A stretch of DNA of 42,267 bases from Verrucomicrobiota bacterium (lineage in GTDB: Bacteria > Verrucomicrobiota > Verrucomicrobiia > Chthoniobacterales > UBA10450), in the NCBI GenBank assembly GCA_003218305.1, contig QHMY01000082.1, positions 1 to 42,267 on the forward strand. Direction: 5' to 3'. Below the pieces are notes generated by a model that saw nothing but the letters and a program-made list of their open reading frames with translations, made no database searches and had not been told where the DNA came from. The position numbers were made by a program, and so were the translations under genes. Shown here in pieces: positions 1 to 34,950 of this stretch. Position 1 is the first letter of the stretch. Every line of letters starts with the position of its first letter.

Positions 1-1316
1 TTCTGCTCGACCCCGTGCTCGAACTGCGGGGCTCAGCCGGGTTTGCCACCGTCGTGAACAACAACTGGAGAGACACCCAGGAGGCTGAGATTCAAGCCAC
101 CGGCATCGCCCCCGTCAATGATCTGGAATCAGCCATTGTCGCCACGTTGCCTCCCGGTTCTTACACCACCATTGTCAGAGGCAACGGGAATACGTCTGGC
201 GTTGGCCTGGTCGAAATCTACGATCTCAGTCAGGGACTCACGTCGAAACTGGCCAACCTGAGCACCCGCGCCATGGTCGGCACCGGCGAGAATATCGTCA
301 TTGCGGGATTCACCTTGAGCAACGCGGCTGGTGATGACTCGCTCATCGTCCGGGGCCTCGGCCCCAGCCTCGCTGCTGCTGGCGTGCCGGCTGTGCTGGC
401 TAATCCAGTCTTGGAGCTCCGGGACTGTCAGGGAACGCTTCTGTTCGCCAATGACGACTGGCAGGACGATCCGGCCCAGGCCGCCATCGTTACCGCCGCC
501 GGCCTCGCGCCTTCTAATAACCTCGAAGCCGCCATTGCCGCGACTCTGCCTCCGGGTCCCTACACCGTTCTGTTCTTTGGCCAAAACAACGGCACCGGCA
601 TCGGCTTGATTGAAGTGTACGACCGCGGCACTAACGTTCCGAACGGCCCGGTGCTCCCGCACAGACCGCCCTGCGCGCCACCACCGCCGCCGATTACTCC
701 AACACCCACGCCCACCCCGATCCCCGTCCCGAGCCCAAGTCCTACCGGCCCCTGCCTCGAGAATTTTGACGGCGTAAACGCCCCTGGTCTGCCCGCTGGT
801 TGGACGGCCACGAATGCTGTCGGACCGACTCCGCTCTGGGTCACCTCGCCCACCACCCCGGATACCGCTCCGAATGATGCGGTAGTCAAAGATCCCGCCG
901 AAGTCAGCGACAAACGTCTCGACACGCGCAACATCATCGTTAATTCGCCTGCAGCTCAGTTGAGTTTCCGCAACAACTTCAGTCTTCAGGACACCTTTGA
1001 TGGCGGAGTGCTGGAGGTTTCGTCACCCAATATTGCCGGCGGAGCATTTACCGATGTCACGAACGCGGCAGTCGGCGGCAGCTTCGTCACCGGCGGTTAT
1101 ACCGGCCCGCTTAACAACACGCTCGGCAATCCGCTCGGCGGCCGAATGGCCTGGTCGGGCAATTCCGGTGGGTATATCAACACCGTGGTCAACCTCGGCC
1201 CGAACGTCGTTGGGCGGACGATCAAGCTCCGCTTCCGCCTCGGGACCGATCAAGCCATCGAAGTGGGCGCCTGGCGCATCGACTCCATCGCCATCACCGG
1301 CGCCGCCTGCCCCTAA
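1..1316 (+). CDS. Secreted repeat-domain protein, C-terminal part (5' truncated)
   Basis: The reading frame is already open at the window edge (first in-frame codons read LLDPVLELRG), so the ORF-track start at 15 is not the real start. What is visible is the end of one domain of about 125 residues, a complete second copy (about residues 80-206 of the ORF; 'LANLSTR', 'GENIVIAGF', 'VRGLGPSL', 'NDDWQDDPAQ'), a Pro/Thr linker ('PPPPPITPTPTPTPIPVPSP'), and a C-terminal domain of about 190 residues starting 'CLENFDGVNAPGLPAGW'. That last part resembles the lectin/MAM-like jelly-roll modules seen at the ends of secreted proteins. The same 125-residue domain ends the 990-aa protein at 6106-9078. No catalytic motif is visible. 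Inferred role: extracellular or surface-attached binding or structural protein; substrate unknown. The stop TAA is followed directly by the GTGCTC-rich repeat element. Confidence 0.85.
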   Translation, partial: LLDPVLELRGSAGFATVVNNNWRDTQEAEIQATGIAPVNDLESAIVATLPPGSYTTIVRGNGNTSGVGLVEIYDLSQGLTSKLANLSTRAMVGTGENIVIAGFTLSNAAGDDSLIVRGLGPSLAAAGVPAVLANPVLELRDCQGTLLFANDDWQDDPAQAAIVTAAGLAPSNNLEAAIAATLPPGPYTVLFFGQNNGTGIGLIEVYDRGTNVPNGPVLPHRPPCAPPPPPITPTPTPTPIPVPSPSPTGPCLENFDGVNAPGLPAGWTATNAVGPTPLWVTSPTTPDTAPNDAVVKDPAEVSDKRLDTRNIIVNSPAAQLSFRNNFSLQDTFDGGVLEVSSPNIAGGAFTDVTNAAVGGSFVTGGYTGPLNNTLGNPLGGRMAWSGNSGGYINTVVNLGPNVVGRTIKLRFRLGTDQAIEVGAWRIDSIAITGAACP

Positions 1317-1500
1317 TCCCCTCGTAATCGTGCTCCTGCTCGTGCTCGTGCTCGTGCTCGATCCCTAAAGCCCGGTCGATCCTGATTTCCTCCTGCTCTT
1401 GATCCTGATTCTGCTCCTGATTCTTCTCCAACGAATCGAACACGAGCTCGCCACGGCGAGTCCGTCCTTTGGCGGACATGAGCACTTCCGCCGACCGGCG
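1317..1500. repeat. GTGCTC-rich element plus inverted copy of a 32-bp repeat
   Basis: Directly after the stop codon the sequence reads TCCCCTCGTAATCGTGCTC, then several GTGCTC hexamers, then degenerate CCTGATTCTGCTC units to about 1430. Bases 1454-1485 are an exact reverse-complement copy of 6015-6046. Hexamers at the left (GTGCTC) and the end (GAGCAC) can pair, so the whole region could fold. It fills the gap between two convergent genes. No ORF here looks real. Confidence 0.75.
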
Positions 1501-1528
1501 TGCCGACTAGCGTTGGCTTGGGTTCGGA

Positions 1529-2464
1529 TTAAAACGCGAGCTGCGCCCCGAAAATCAAGCTCGGCGTCACCACATTGTATTGGCGCGCGCCGACACTCGA
1601 GAAGTTGCCGATATAAGAGGCAGTCGCCGCCAGCACCAAATATTGAGTCGGCATCCAGCTCACCGACGCACCCACCGTCACATTGAAATCGTCCCGGTCG
1701 CCCGCTGGATCATGCGTGTAATGCTGCACCTCGGGCCGGGTGAATCCGCTCAACTGAACCGTTTCGGAAAGATTATAGATGGCGAGGAAATTGAAATAGC
1801 CGGCGAAACGATCGGACACTGAAGGATCGCCGTGCCGCCAGTAGGTGCCGCCCGTGATCCCGAGATTGACCGGAGTGCTGCCCAGCGGCATCAGGTGAGT
1901 GACACTGGCGTTCAGAAATCCGTACCGGTAAAACTCATCGACGGAGGAATGCGGTGCGGTCAGCCGGCTTAGCGAGTAGGAAGTATTGCAAAACCACGTG
2001 TCGTTTGCGTTGAGGTCGTACTTCAAGTCGAGAAGCAAAGTCTGTGAATTGAAATCCAACGAGCCGAATTCGCCGTAGCGAAACCAGTTCTGATCGAAGA
2101 CCAGCGTCGGGGTGAAGTTCCGGGTGGCATAAGGCACGAACGCGGCCCCGACCCGGCCGTTCCAATAAAAATCGCTCTGCTCGCCGTCCGGAACCAGAAA
2201 GGCGTTGCTGGTGAAATTGAGTGATTGCGTGGTGAAGAAGGTAAACATTTTCGGCCTCGGCTGGCGTGAGACCAGGCTGATATCGCCCAGCTCGGAATCG
2301 GAAATGGCCTCCGGTTGTTCCTCATTGTTCAACACATTTTGCTGCCGCGCCCTGGCCTGCTGCTGCGTTTCCACCCGCACGTCCTGGGCGAAACTCTGCG
2401 CCACGGCCAGGAACGAACCGAGGAGCAGAAAAGCTGTTCGATTATGCCAGATGGTGAAGCTCAT
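1529..2464 (-). CDS. Predicted outer-membrane beta-barrel protein
   Basis: A 311-residue protein starting MSFTIWHNRTAFLLLGSFLAVAQSFAQ, a clear signal peptide with likely cleavage after AQSFAQ or nearby. After a Gln-rich stretch of about 45 residues the rest alternates polar and aromatic residues in short strands ('FTFFTTQSLNFTSNAF', 'YVFDQNW'-like segments) with many Tyr/Phe/Trp and no Cys, and it ends in Phe ('FGAQLAF'), the usual C-terminal signature of an outer-membrane barrel. I do not recognise a named family. It lies just downstream (23 bp) of the FecR-domain gene on the same strand and is probably cotranscribed with it. The pair suggests an envelope module, perhaps an export or sensing channel. 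Function is inferred only from its fold-like character. Confidence 0.75.
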   Translation of the reverse strand: MSFTIWHNRTAFLLLGSFLAVAQSFAQDVRVETQQQARARQQNVLNNEEQPEAISDSELGDISLVSRQPRPKMFTFFTTQSLNFTSNAFLVPDGEQSDFYWNGRVGAAFVPYATRNFTPTLVFDQNWFRYGEFGSLDFNSQTLLLDLKYDLNANDTWFCNTSYSLSRLTAPHSSVDEFYRYGFLNASVTHLMPLGSTPVNLGITGGTYWRHGDPSVSDRFAGYFNFLAIYNLSETVQLSGFTRPEVQHYTHDPAGDRDDFNVTVGASVSWMPTQYLVLAATASYIGNFSSVGARQYNVVTPSLIFGAQLAF

Positions 2465-2487
2465 CGTCGGTTTGGGCGAGGTTCCAA

Positions 2488-3768
2488 TTAACGGCCGGGA
2501 AATTGAACAACCACCGAGTTGCTGTTCTGCCCGACCGCCAGCGCTCCGCTAATTACCTGCACTTGCCCATTGTAAAAGACCCGGAGAGTAAAGGGATCGC
2601 TCCCATTCGGAGAATTAAAATTGTTCACGAAAAACGTGTAGAGACCCGCGAGAGGAATTCCGTTGATCGAGATGTTTTCCACTCTCGTTCTCGGCGGAAT
2701 GTCGATCGTGCCCCCGCGGTTATCGTGGTCCAGCAGGGCGAGGGCGCGGCCGTTGTTGAACCTGACGGAGACGTTGCTGAAAGAAACAACCTGCCCCGTG
2801 GGCAGGGTGAGATACAAATCGAGGTCGGCTGAAGTATTCCAGATCAGTTGGGCCTGGATGATGCCGGTGCTGCCGACCGGAAGAATTCCATTAGGATTCT
2901 TGGTCTGAAGCTGCGCCACGGTATCGAGCGGAACCACCTGCCCGACCAAGGCCATGTTAATCGGTCCTGAGGACACTCTGACGTTTGTCTGGTCGACGAA
3001 GCCATGGCGGGCATCGGCTTCGTATTGGGCGATCGCCTGGTTCACCTCGACCGCGTTTGGCAACGGCGCGTTGAACCCCTTGATCAGCGGCGAAGTCTTG
3101 ACGAAGCGCGGAATGTCGAACTGGACCACGCGCGGCATCCCATCCGGCCGGGCAATCAGCATCTCCCCGGCACCAAGCCGGAACGGGGTGGTGTGCTCGT
3201 GGCCGGAACTATCGGTCCAGCGCGATCCGCCATGGATCTTTCCTTCGAGCATGCCGACAATCGTCGTCGTTCCTTTGCCCTTGGAATGACCGGTGCCCTG
3301 TACCGGCGCGGTCGAGATAAAGCCGGTCGAGCCGGTGATCGCGCCGGATATTGCCCCGGATTGAAGCTGGATCGGCCCCGAATTCTTCGGCTTGGAGAAG
3401 AGCACCGCGCCTCTGGTGAAATGCATCGCCCGTGCCGCCGCGTCGAAGGAGAAAATCGAGTTCGATCCAAGACGCGCCAGGGTGAGATCAGCGAACTCGA
3501 GTTCAGCGCGCGATTCCGTTCCGGTCCGCACCACGTTGTCTGGTTGTACCACCGCGCCTTGCGCGGCCGGGCGCGCTTCGGCCGAGAGGTTGGGCGCGAG
3601 GGTGACCACATTATGTTTCTCGCGTACCACCGCCTGCGATAGATCCGCTCCCTGCGCCAGGCTGGCCACGGAGAGGGAACTCGCCACCATTAGAAACGAC
3701 AACCCCCGCTGGGGGGAGCGAAAGATCGAAAGGCGGGCGATAGCCCACCGGCAGGGCCCAGTAAACAT
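2488..3768 (-). CDS. FecR-domain secreted protein
   Basis: The ORF extends to a TTG at 3804, but I prefer the ATG at 3768, which has AGGG just upstream and leaves a long but plausible signal region ending 'LSVASLAQGADLS'. The mature N-terminal half matches the FecR domain: 'DNVVRTGTESRAELEFADLTLARLGSNSIFSF' followed by 'FTRGAVLFSKPK' and a beta-rich 'GTTTIVGMLEGKIHGGS'. The C-terminal 120 residues ('NTSADLDLYLTLPTGQVVSFSN', 'AGLYTFFVNNF') resemble DUF2135/YfaP-like secreted domains. FecR proteins of this kind, unlike classic iron-dicitrate FecR, carry no anti-sigma part and often sit beside CHASE2 cyclases. Here one is divergent from such a gene with about 95 bp between starts. Probably a periplasmic ligand- or polymer-binding partner of that cyclase; this is inference. 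Confidence 0.85.
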   Translation of the reverse strand: MFTGPCRWAIARLSIFRSPQRGLSFLMVASSLSVASLAQGADLSQAVVREKHNVVTLAPNLSAEARPAAQGAVVQPDNVVRTGTESRAELEFADLTLARLGSNSIFSFDAAARAMHFTRGAVLFSKPKNSGPIQLQSGAISGAITGSTGFISTAPVQGTGHSKGKGTTTIVGMLEGKIHGGSRWTDSSGHEHTTPFRLGAGEMLIARPDGMPRVVQFDIPRFVKTSPLIKGFNAPLPNAVEVNQAIAQYEADARHGFVDQTNVRVSSGPINMALVGQVVPLDTVAQLQTKNPNGILPVGSTGIIQAQLIWNTSADLDLYLTLPTGQVVSFSNVSVRFNNGRALALLDHDNRGGTIDIPPRTRVENISINGIPLAGLYTFFVNNFNSPNGSDPFTLRVFYNGQVQVISGALAVGQNSNSVVVQFPGR

Positions 3769-6001: not shown

Positions 6002-6066
6002 CCCCCTCGTTTTCGTGCTCATGTCCGCCAAAGGACGGACTCGCCGCTGCGAGCTCGTAATCGAGT
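6002..6066. repeat. Repeat element after cyclase stop, with 32-bp exact repeat
   Basis: CCCCCTCGTTTTCGTGCTC directly follows the TAA and matches the sequence after the stop at 1316 at 16 of 19 bases. Bases 6015-6046 are exactly repeated, inverted, at 1454-1485, and similarity continues past this core into 'GCGAGCTCGT'. The core has self-complementary parts (GTCC..GGAC, ACTCG..CGAGT). Confidence 0.75.
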
Positions 6067-6105
6067 CTTGATAAAGCAGTCGGCTTCCTACAGGTTCGCC
6101 GGAAT

Positions 6106-22664: not shown

Positions 22665-22746
22665 GATGGCTCCGTGGTCGAGGCTGGGCGTTTAGGTAAC
22701 GCGGTTTTCCCGCCAAGGTCAAGCAAACGAATGACCGCCTCCCCAT

Positions 22747-22832
22747 CGTTCTCGTGCTCGTGCTCCGGCTCGTGCTCGATTAGGGACCGGCCTGACACAG
22801 AACGAGCACGAGTAGGAGCACGAGCACGATTA
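22747..22832. repeat. GTGCTC inverted repeat between accB and the ABC ATPase gene
   Basis: Left arm 22747-22779 (CGTTCTCGTGCTCGTGCTC and following) and right arm 22800-22829 (GAACGAGCACGAG and following) are near reverse complements separated by about 20 bp containing TTAGGGACCGG. Read on the minus strand the right arm starts TCGTAATCGTGCTC, identical over 14 bases to the element after the stop at 1316. Its TAA is the stop codon of the ABC gene. Could form a long hairpin in either transcript and might act as a terminator or mRNA-end structure. Confidence 0.75.
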
Positions 22833-23531
22833 CGAAATGGATGAGGAATCCCCCACCACCCGCCCATCACGCATCTCGACCCGCCGGGAGGCGGCCCGCG
22901 CCACTTCGTCGCTGTGGGTCGCCACAATCAGGGTAGTCATCCGCTCTGTGGCGATCTCCTCCAGCAGTCGCATCACGCTCGAGGCGGACTGAGAATCGAG
23001 ATTGCCGGTCGGCTCGTCCGCGATCAAAAGCGCGGGACGATGGATCAGTGCCCGAGCGATGGCGGTTCGTTGCTGCTCCCCTCCACTGAGTTGATGAATG
23101 AAGTGCGTCGATCGATCGGTCAGTCCGACCAGATCGATCAGCTCCGCCGCTCGTCTCTCGCTCTCCTCCGCCGGCACCCCTTGCAACAGCAAAGGGAAGC
23201 TGACGTTTTCCCTCACGTTCATCGTCGGCAGGAGATTGAAGAACTGAAAAACCAGGCCGAGCTGTCGACGGCGATATTCCGTCAAAGCCGCGTCATCTGC
23301 GGTGTGCAACGCCAGACCGTCCACTACGATCTCCCCTGTAGTCGGCTGCTCCAGGCCCGCGAGAAGGTGAATGAGCGTGCTCTTGCCGCAACCGCTCGGT
23401 CCGCGCACGGCAACAAATTCATTCCGCGCGATTTCAAGCGAGACTCCGTCCAGCGCGTGCACCGCCCGTTCTCCAGTCTTATAATGGCGACAGATGTTCC
23501 TCAGCGAGATCAAGGAAGCTCTATCAGCCAC
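22830..23531 (-). CDS. ABC transporter ATP-binding protein (LolD/MacB type)
   Basis: Cytoplasmic ATPase subunit. Walker A 'GPSGCGKST', Q-loop '[25 protein letters not shown]', signature '[19 protein letters not shown]', Walker B '[15 protein letters not shown]', switch His 'VATHSDE'. The sequence pattern is that of the LolD/MacB/FtsE group that works with mechanotransmission permeases. The track ORF starts at 23624, but similarity begins at '[12 protein letters not shown]'; the GTG at 23531 (VADRAS) gives 233 residues, the normal length, and shortens the overlap with the divergent RluA-type gene. No permease gene is adjacent, so its partner must be elsewhere. Stop codon lies inside a repeat element. 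Confidence 0.92.
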
Positions 23532-30901: not shown

Positions 30902-32932
30902 ATGGCCGGGGCTGACTTTGAGGATGCATCTCTGTTGGAAAAGGCCACTGAAGCGGACGATCTCCGCGATTCGGCCGCGAAGAACATTCGCGAATTGCTC
31001 GGAGCTTCGGCCTCACCGGTTTACGCCGCCGCCGTTTCCGAGCTCGCGCGCGCGGGAGAATGGGCGGAGCTCAACGACCGCTTCTACAAAACCCTCGCTT
31101 TCGGCACGGGCGGCCTGCGCGGGCGGACCATTGGGAAGATTGTCACCCGCGCGGAACGGGACGAGGCAGACCCGCAGGAGCGACCACGATTCCCTTGCGT
31201 GGGAACGAACGCGATGAACGATTTCAATGTCAGCCGCGCTACTCAGGGGCTCGTCGCCTATCTGCACGAGTGGCGCCTTCGCCAAAAAATCGAGGGACCA
31301 CCGAAGATTGTGATCGCCTACGATTCGCGGCATTTCTCGAAGGAATTCGCGGAACTGGCCGCCAGGACCGCCGTGGAAAATGGTTGCGATGCCCGCGTCT
31401 TCGAAGGCCCGCGATCGACGCCGGAACTCTCCTTCGCCGTCCGGCAGCTCCGGGCGAGCGCCGGCATCGTAATCACGGCCAGCCACAACCCGCCGCATGA
31501 CAATGGCTATAAAGTCTATTTCGACGACGGCGCCCAAGTGATCGAGCCGCACGCCGGCGGGATCATCGCGCAGGTCAACAGTATTAAGAGCGAGACCTCC
31601 GCCACCAAACCGGAAAAAGGCGGCGAAGTGAGCACGGTCGGGCGCGAAATCGACGAAGCCTACATGAAGCGGCTCGAAAGCCTGATCCTGAATCGCGAAC
31701 TCGTTCGGTCGGCCAAATCGCTTCGCATCGTTTTTACGCCCCTGCACGGTACGGGCGGCGTCATCATCAAACCGATGCTCGAACGGCTCGGTTTCAACTT
31801 CCAGGTGGTCGAGGCACAGGACCGTTTTGATGGGGATTTTCCCACGGTCGATTCTCCCAACCCCGAGAACGCCGCCGCCCTGGCGCTTGGGGTCGAGCTG
31901 GCCGAAAAGGAAAACGCCGATCTGGTTATCGCGACGGATCCGGACTGCGATCGCATGGGAGTTGCCATTCGAACCGCGAACGGCCAGATGGCCCTGATCA
32001 CGGGCAACCAGATTGGTTCCCTCCTCGCCTACTACCGGGCGAAGACGCTTTTTGAAATGGGCGTGCTCACCAAGGAGAACGCGTCCCGCGCCGTCATCAT
32101 CAAGACTTTCGTCACCACCGATCTGCAAAAGGCGATCGCAGAACATTATGGTATCCGCTGTGTCGAGACGTTGACCGGTTTCAAATACATCGGGGCGAAG
32201 CTGGGCAAGTACGAACGCGAGCTCCTGGCGGCTCTGGGTAGGGACGCCGCGCTGCGGCGTCCGAACGAGTCCTCTCCCGCCGCCACCGGCGCGGAGCGCC
32301 GTCCCTACCGGGAAATGTCTGAGGAGGAAACTCGTGAGCTCCGGCTTGCCCACTCGTCCTACTGCTTCTTTGCCGGCGAAGAAAGCTATGGGTATACCGG
32401 CGGCGATTTCGCCCGCGACAAGGATGGCAACGGTGCCTCCATCATGTTTTGCGAGGTTGCTGCTTGGGCGAAGTCGCGCAACCTGACGGTCGACGCGCTC
32501 CTCGATGAGATTTTTTCCGAGTTCGGCTATTTCCAGGAATTCACCGGATCACTTACCTTCGACGGAGCCGAGGGAGCGGAGACGATTGCGCGTTTGCTGG
32601 GATCGTATGTCACCCGTCCTCCAACTGAGATGCTGGGAGCGCAATTGATCCAGGTGAAAAACTTCGAAACCGACACCTACCGGGACATCGAGGGCGAGGA
32701 GATTCCGAAAGAAAAAATGCTGGTGTTCGCGTTTGGGGACCACACTCGCATCGCGATCCGCGCTTCCGGGACCGAACCCAAGATCAAATATTACCTGTTC
32801 GCGCAACGAAGACCGGAGGGGACCCGATTCAGTGCGGCGGAGCTGGCTGAACAAAAACGCCAGGTGAGCGAGCATCTGAAACGGGTCTGGGCTTGGCTGC
32901 GCCAGGATGCGTCGGTGCGGACGGTCGCATAA
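30902..32932 (+). CDS. Phosphoglucomutase/phosphomannomutase (alpha-D-phosphohexomutase)
   Basis: 676 residues. Four-domain phosphohexomutase that interconverts hexose 1- and 6-phosphates. Phosphoserine loop '[19 protein letters not shown]' with Ser194; metal loop 'TDPDCDRMG' (Asp346, Asp348, Asp350); sugar-binding '[12 protein letters not shown]' (about 492-501); phosphate-binding '[12 protein letters not shown]' (from Arg620). 'FGTGGLRG' near residue 70 marks the group close to B. subtilis PgcA. Longer than most relatives; residues about 446-470 ([24 protein letters not shown]) are encoded by a palindromic DNA element inserted in frame between domains, in a likely surface loop. Start by ORF; an ATG with no strong ribosome site. 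Confidence 0.95.
32237..32309. repeat. REP-like inverted repeat inside the phosphohexomutase gene
   Basis: Arms GGTAGGGACGCCGCGCTGCG (32237-32256) and GCGCGGAGCGCCGTCCCTACC (32289-32309) are imperfect reverse complements with a 32-bp middle. The left arm also holds its own small palindrome, GACGCCGC..GCGGCGTC. The reading frame stays open through it. Confidence 0.8.
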
Positions 32933-33294: not shown

Positions 33295-34950
33295 GTGGCC
33301 GCGTTTCCAAAAGCGCTGCGGCTCTGGCCGTGGCTGGCAGCGATACTGAGCGGCTTACTTTGCACCGCCTGCTTCGCACCGTTTGATCAGGGGTGGCTCT
33401 GCTGGGTCGCGTTGACGCCCCTGCTCGCGGCGATTTGGTTTTCGGGCGCCAATTCGAAACGTCGCTGGTTGCGCGATCTCCTGCTGGGATACGTCGCCGG
33501 GCTGGCGTTTTTCTGGTCTGTTTTTTCCTGGCTCAGGACCGTGACCGTGCCCGGCCTGTTCCTGGTCGGAGCCTACATGTCTATTTATTTTGCGCTCTGG
33601 AGCTGGGTCTGCGGATTGTTGCGCCCATCGCTGCGCGCTCCTGTGGAGGTGGATCGCGGAACGCCACCGCCGCCTGAGGAAGAAGCGTTGCGTGCCCGGT
33701 CCCCCTGGTTGCGTTCGACGAACAACCTTCGTCTCGCTTTTCTTCTCGCGACCGTCTGGGTCGCCCAGGAATGGCTGCGGAGCGTGGTTTTTTCCGGATG
33801 GGGTTGGAACACCCTCGGGGCCGCTTTGCATGCCCAATTGGTCCTCATTCAAATCGTCGAATACACCGGCGTGCCCGGACTTTCCTTCCTGGTCGCATTT
33901 ACCAACGTTATTCTCCTCGCAACCATCCGCCGCCTCATCCTGGAAACGCGGGTCCGGCCGATCCGCCCCCATTACGATTTCACGCTGACGATGGCGGCGA
34001 TTATCGCCGTCATGAGCTTCGGCCTCAGGACGTTGCAAACTGGGCAGCCCTCGAAGCCTCTCCGGGTGGCCCTGGTCCAACCCAACATTCCACGCGAGCA
34101 AAAATTCAGCCCGATGTTTGCGCAGCAAACTTTTGATCAATTCACCGGTTTGAGTACTCCCGCCCTTAGTTCCAGTGCCCCGCCGGACCTAATCGTCTGG
34201 CCGGAAAGCTCGATGCCGGGCCCGGTCCTGCAGGACGAGCTCAGTTTCCAATTCGTCATGGACTTTGCCACCTCGGCCAAGACCGACCTGCTCCTCGGCA
34301 CGCTCGATCTGGATGAAACGCGCGATTACAACGCAGCGCTTCTCGTCGCAGAAAGCGGGCAGCGCGCCCAAATTTATCGGAAAATTCACCTCGTCCCGTT
34401 CGGCGAATATATTCCGGGCCGGCATACCATTCCGTTGCTTGCGCGCGTGGTGGGCGATCAGGTCCCGAGTGATTTCGCTTTCGGCAAGGATTACACGGTC
34501 TTTCGCCTGACGAATGATAAGGCCTTTGTGGCGCCCTTGATTTGCTTCGAGGATACGATCGGAGATTTGGCGAGGCAGTTCGTTCTCGGGGGGGCCAACC
34601 TCCTGGCCAACGTCACGAATGACGGCTGGTTCCTGCGCTCCGCCGGTTCGCAGCAGCATTTGGCCAATGCGGTCTTCCGTTGCATCGAAACGCGCCTGCC
34701 GATGGTGCGGGCGGCGAATACCGGAGTTACCTGCACCATCACTCCGTTAGGCCAGATTTCCTCGAGCCACCTCCTGCCTCCTTTCACAGAAGGTGTCCTC
34801 CTGGGAGAAGTGAACCTGCCCACCGAGCGCGTTCTTACCTTTTACGTGCGGCACGGCGAGATCTTCACCTACGGGTGCGTCGGCGTTTCGATCCTGATGT
34901 TCCTGTTCCTTGGAGCGCAACGACTCCTTAGACGCCGCAAGTCAGCATAG
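33295..34950 (+). CDS. lnt: Apolipoprotein N-acyltransferase
   Basis: 551 residues, GTG start 8 bp after the preceding gene. Inner-membrane enzyme adding the third acyl chain to lipoproteins. N-terminal half has about six membrane segments ('GLLCTACFAPFDQGWLCWVALTPLL', 'SWLRTVTVPGLFLVGAYMSIYFALW'); the periplasmic carbon-nitrogen hydrolase domain has the triad Glu304 (VWPESSMPG), Lys363 (RKIHLVPFGEYIP) and Cys417 (LICFEDT), plus 'LLANVTNDGWF'. One C-terminal membrane segment closes the protein. An acidic insert at about 118-140 ('DRGTPPPPEEEALRARSPW') is longer than in E. coli Lnt. Confidence 0.95.
   Translation: MAAFPKALRLWPWLAAILSGLLCTACFAPFDQGWLCWVALTPLLAAIWFSGANSKRRWLRDLLLGYVAGLAFFWSVFSWLRTVTVPGLFLVGAYMSIYFALWSWVCGLLRPSLRAPVEVDRGTPPPPEEEALRARSPWLRSTNNLRLAFLLATVWVAQEWLRSVVFSGWGWNTLGAALHAQLVLIQIVEYTGVPGLSFLVAFTNVILLATIRRLILETRVRPIRPHYDFTLTMAAIIAVMSFGLRTLQTGQPSKPLRVALVQPNIPREQKFSPMFAQQTFDQFTGLSTPALSSSAPPDLIVWPESSMPGPVLQDELSFQFVMDFATSAKTDLLLGTLDLDETRDYNAALLVAESGQRAQIYRKIHLVPFGEYIPGRHTIPLLARVVGDQVPSDFAFGKDYTVFRLTNDKAFVAPLICFEDTIGDLARQFVLGGANLLANVTNDGWFLRSAGSQQHLANAVFRCIETRLPMVRAANTGVTCTITPLGQISSSHLLPPFTEGVLLGEVNLPTERVLTFYVRHGEIFTYGCVGVSILMFLFLGAQRLLRRRKSA

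Follow-up and report, generated by a model that had tools for sequence, protein, structure and literature searches.

How does a palindromic DNA element come to lie in frame within the gene of a phosphohexomutase, and what becomes of it there? The question is raised by a window of 42,267 nucleotides (the whole stretch of DNA that was analysed) from a Chthoniobacterales (Verrucomicrobiota) MAG of a soil bacterium (3.60 Mb in 285 contigs, 88.7% complete). We propose that the element is very probably a REPIN, a non-autonomous miniature element of a GTAG repeat that is widespread in the bacterial family, and that it is carried as a tolerated passenger in a permissive loop of the mutase.

A pair of GTAG-tagged REPs and its genomic family

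A preliminary description of this DNA had located an inverted repeat in the coding region at positions 32237-32309 (+ strand). The inverted repeat is indeed present and its length of 73 bp stands. However, it is not the single palindrome with 20-bp arms that had been described. The arms (32237-32259 and 32287-32309) are 23 nt long and 83% complementary, and DNA folding of the region yields two separate hairpins (z = -3.9), so that each arm is a palindrome by itself. A single arm consists of GGTAG followed by the stem-loop GGACGCCGC-GCT-GCGGCGTCC, and in both arms, as well as in the genome consensus GGTAGGGACGSCGCGCTGCGSCGTCC, the short palindrome is bordered on one side by the tetranucleotide GTAG. 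The left REP (32237..32262, +), with its GGTAG head and hairpin, matches the family consensus exactly, and the inverted right REP (32284..32309, -; GGTAGGGACGGCGCTCCGCGCCGGTG) has an outer stem that is in part decayed. The 21-bp spacer between them (32263..32283, +) varies among copies and also among the carrier species. The stretch is two GTAG-tagged palindromic REPs in head-to-head arrangement, i.e. a REPIN or BIME.

Within the window the arm GGTAGGGACGCCGCGCTGCG has two matches (0 and 3 mismatches), both inside the element, while shuffled sequences give an expectation of 0.00. In the host genome the arm pattern was matched 88 times with up to 2 mismatches, against 0 for the reversed-pattern control; the genome counts come from pattern searches and from stretches that were fetched. 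Thus, the arm belongs to an interspersed family, and the further genomic copies that the preliminary description had proposed to look for do exist. These numbers leave next to no credence for the view that this is simply a variable loop of the protein and that its DNA, in a GC-rich gene, came to be palindromic by chance. Mutase loops do differ in length, but merely 4 of 101 orthologues are lengthened at this site, and the 88 copies together with the shuffle expectation led us to reject this explanation.

The 88 arms group into 64 places, with the consensus GGTAGGGACGSCGCGCTGCGSCGTCC, a spacer and an inverted copy. The spacers vary from copy to copy and can be as short as a few nucleotides or as long as some tens. 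For roughly half of the elements listed, a second arm, in many cases degenerate, lies at most 130 nt away and completes the pair. The 26-nt REP is present in 28 of 46 sampled genomes of the bacterial family, with a maximum of 196 matches in one genome. Its copy number is 66 in the host genome, 196 in G004, 104 in G005 and 0 in G006, and such differences between species would be as for a mobile family. At up to 2 mismatches, the contrast between G006 and its sister G004 reflects either near-complete loss in the one or a large expansion in the other. A literature search found no account of repeats in the host's Chthoniobacterales family.

Most copies lie outside recognisable genes. At four of the 64 places a single open frame runs through the element and shows known protein homology to either side of it, namely in the mutase, in COX15/CtaA (L019), in leucyl-tRNA synthetase (LeuRS; L057, at the start of the editing domain) and in a LigD-type ligase, where the element lies in the linker (L025). 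Frames with an element near their start, such as L013, L023 and L060, were left out of this count because the start codon comes after the element.

The window holds other repeats as well. CTCGTGCTCGTGCTCG-type repeats, another small repeat type, form inverted repeats at 1320-1380 and 22735-22846, and a 53-nt inverted repeat (1433-1485 and 6015-6067, 91% complementary) encloses a stretch of 4.5 kb. The variable loop PVEVDRGTPPPPEEEALRARSPW of the next gene, lnt (33295-34950), was considered and rejected; its length differs in every species and it does not resemble a REP product.

Occupied and empty sites in the mutase

The host gene (30902..32932, +) encodes a phosphoglucomutase/phosphomannomutase (alpha-D-phosphohexomutase) of 676 residues, as identified from its reading frame, Pfam domains and orthologues, which were found in 56 of 58 genomes searched. 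It has the domains PGM_PMM_I, II and III and a sub-threshold IV, and the alignment shows conserved TASHNP, DPDCDR and GEESYGY motifs, so that domains I-III and the active-site, metal-binding and sugar-binding loops of a phosphohexomutase are all present. The frame remains open across the element, which encodes residues 446-469 and the first base of codon 470. These residues belong to domain III, after the metal-binding (DPDCDR) and before the sugar-binding (GEESYGY) loop, in agreement with the position given in the preliminary description. An AlphaFold2 model based on a 32-row alignment (mean pLDDT 87, pTM 0.87) has a sole long internal stretch with pLDDT below 50, residues 449-465, which sits between predicted helices at 427-444 and 474-484. 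The element is thus predicted to form a loop, with fold and frame kept.

Insert length was taken as the number of residues between two fixed motifs, which was measurable in 101 mutase orthologues. In 83 of these there are 38 residues between the motifs, and in four there are 58-63. Thus 97 of 101 orthologues have an unlengthened loop and, as the proposed comparison with close relatives was meant to reveal, most close orthologues lack the insert; the non-carriers have a loop of usual length and no visible scar. The frame is intact, as had been stated, but the estimate of about 25 added residues needs refinement. The element encodes 24 residues and one base, and the net gain is about 20 (58 versus 38 residues), being smaller because a few residues of the ancestral loop were replaced.

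The lengthened mutases are those of the host, of G004 and G005, all from one genus, and of L153 from another branch of the family. L153 best matches members of another genus. Its insert, GKDAALRRP...ARRPY, is encoded by the REP-like DNA GGAAAGGATGCCGCGCTGCGGCGTCC (3 mismatches), and its genome has no REP copy at up to 2 mismatches. The L153 insertion is probably an independent event. Within the genus, the REPINs of COX15 and LeuRS occupy their sites in exactly the species that carry the mutase element (host, G004 and G005), at the same codon in each case. The LigD linker contains a REP-like peptide, GRR.A.SL, in several species of the genus, a wider distribution than at the other sites; judged at the peptide level, this is perhaps an older REP insertion.

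Descent, mobilisation and the question of selection

Three insertions shared by the same three species could stem from common descent or from repeated insertion. In the host, G004 and G005 the exact arm GGTAGGGTCGTCGCGCTGCGACGACC of LeuRS is a single-copy sequence, always located in LeuRS, and the LeuRS element has the identical size of 52 nt in all three. A variant with just one copy in each carrier genome speaks for common descent. However, the species tree does not unite the carriers. In a tree of 13 genes, built with the REP inserts masked, the host lies near G002 and G003, and G004 is joined to the non-carrier G006 (100/100). A clade of the host with G004, G005 and G006 was rejected (AU test, p=0.0001 for 13 genes and p=0.016 for the four-gene data), and hence a single insertion passed on vertically would have to be accompanied by repeated losses or by introgression. 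We also considered local recombination at the mutase insertion and rejected it, as a sliding comparison of identity found the carriers to have no extended tract in common, only the few residues adjoining the element.

A hot spot, in which the carriers gained the REPIN independently and the same family entered the same loop repeatedly in the same frame, is rather unlikely in our judgement. It can draw on L153, which lies outside the genus and has a REP-like insert at the mutase site that its best-matching relatives do not have, on a mutase gene tree that scatters the carriers, and on the LeuRS site, which in other species holds other inserts (GMGFQPMSHRQDADA, AQVSNLQ..ESCPT and ENDEARKPKHE). 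Yet each of the three carriers has the rare LeuRS variant, and has it at no other place in its genome. In addition, the left COX15 arm is of the same unusual form, GGCAGGGACGGCGCGCGGCGCCGTCC, in the host and G005, and these two have in common a mutase flank, RELLAAL, that is missing in the non-carriers. Within the genus we therefore favour common descent of the insertion in the host, G004 and G005, probably with patchy retention: it may be absent elsewhere through allele replacement or loss, or the host may have received it by introgression.

The unlike inserts at the LeuRS REPIN site were seen in L122 (the LeuRS of G003), L256, L264 and L261; they are of the GMGFQPMSHRQDADA, QVSNL..E..CPT and ENDEARKPKHE types, and L254 contains a DNA match to the QVSNL type. 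The host LeuRS (L057; ORF 674-3427, -) also contains a second in-frame insert, NDEGQMTNVEGMTKPEPAGTSSFDIRPSSF, at residues ~590-623. It derives from a AATGACGAA-type repeat that is found elsewhere in the fetched loci too. This insert is common to the host, G004 and G006, and similar inserts occur in other genera.

How might the element have been placed? We suppose that a putative Y1 (HUH) transposase of the TnpA-REP/RAYT type would have inserted it as single-stranded DNA. The host genome has four Y1_Tnp ORFs, two of IS200 type and two of RAYT type according to NCBIfam (NF047646; 100.3 bits, over the cut-off, and 79.9 bits, just under it). The RAYT-type ORFs have no REP within ~1.5 kb, i.e. they do not form a REPtron, in which a RAYT is flanked by the same REPs. 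Among the Y1 loci fetched in the genus, the only one with a REP (a REPIN) within ~1.5 kb is of IS200 type, and G006 has 12 Y1 matches and zero REP. The missing REPtron lowers the claim on the enzyme, not that on the repeat type, since some GTAG families have no REPtron (PMC3733652) and the genome is 88.7% complete and split into 285 contigs. The base before the GGTAG of the arm is enriched for T (38/76, p=8e-9), and CT precedes it in 12 of 76 cases (p=4e-4). This bias is weak evidence that accords with cleavage at CT, as described for TnpA-REP (PMC8266576). After insertion, the element would have been retained as its length and reading frame spared the fold, and it presumably has no needed role in the mutase.

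The conservation of the arms bears on this passenger status. At third positions of codons for the same amino acid, identity within the arms is 38/41, 39/42 and 37/39 for the three species pairs (~93%), compared to 52-55% (~54%) elsewhere in the mutase, COX15 and LeuRS (Fisher p 1.4e-7, 2.1e-8 and 4.3e-8, codons within one element not being independent). A synonymous identity of ~93% is not predicted for a purely passive old passenger. It could be explained by independent or recent insertion, by gene conversion or by selection, the arms sharing a family consensus; for the LeuRS arms gene conversion is unlikely because their variant is unique. Selection would imply a use for the hairpin as DNA or for the peptide that it encodes, either as a functional intragenic REP (e.g. 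in mRNA or supercoiling) or as a protein loop. In each of the three genes the spacers have diverged but the arms have kept their synonymous sites, as selection would have it. We nevertheless regard it as highly doubtful: most mutase orthologues do without the element, the right arm of the mutase copy shows some decay, the loop is modelled with low confidence, and insertion from one consensus, independent or recent, or gene conversion would likewise give similar arms. A broader idea, which we hold to be doubtful as well, is that in this bacterial family several unrelated kinds of small repeat keep entering the same small set of permissive loops in housekeeping enzymes and travel with the allele from one lineage to another, the arms of intragenic REPs being held at the DNA level as still usable mobile-element ends and not as dead scars. 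Our preferred reading of the mutase element itself remains the tolerated passenger.

Relation to known intragenic repeats

The locus is a clear example of a mobile hairpin of DNA turned into protein sequence: occupied sites, empty sites and further genomic copies are at hand, and the loop is predicted to be flexible. That one trio of species shares three insertions, in conflict with the species tree, makes a question testable that earlier catalogues of intragenic REPs left open, namely whether such inserts are passive scars, the outcome of recurrent hits, or alleles passing from species to species. Intragenic GTAG REPs as such are already published (PMC3733652); the present work contributes the host genes, the empty sites, their structural setting and a pattern common to several species.

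The preliminary description was right in calling the element REP-like. However, the kinship to the RPEs of Rickettsia that it suggested did not hold. An RPE is also a small palindrome in frame within housekeeping genes, but it carries the tag CGTC, and CGTC repeats have no association with transposase genes (PMC3733652), whereas the tag here is GTAG. Nor are coding insertions limited to Rickettsia, since the same study, which defines GTAG REPs and their head-to-head dimers, reports intragenic cases in many genera, most of them in the verrucomicrobium Opitutus terrae. With REPINs (PMC3116915) and with BIMEs and their RAYT (PMC8266576) the family shares two inverted REPs with a variable spacer, many dispersed copies, the GTAG and genomic Y1 transposases. 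It differs in that no REPtron was found, and its mobility is putative; REPtrons accompany most, not all, GTAG families (PMC3733652). The closest likeness, judged on tag and layout, is to the GTAG REPs of PMC3733652, which comprise 24 published families, have GTAG beside a palindrome, are mainly head-to-head dimers and are mostly intergenic with some in ORFs. Intragenic REPs in that study often encode 20-30 residues, loops and linkers were proposed as neutral sites, and REPs were found at about the same recB site in two Xanthomonas species. Opitutus terrae belongs to the same phylum as our host, and a further likeness is that the targets listed for GTAG REPs include DNA ligase and tRNA synthetases. 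A difference lies in the host gene of the present element, a phosphohexomutase, to which COX15 and LeuRS are added as other hosts.
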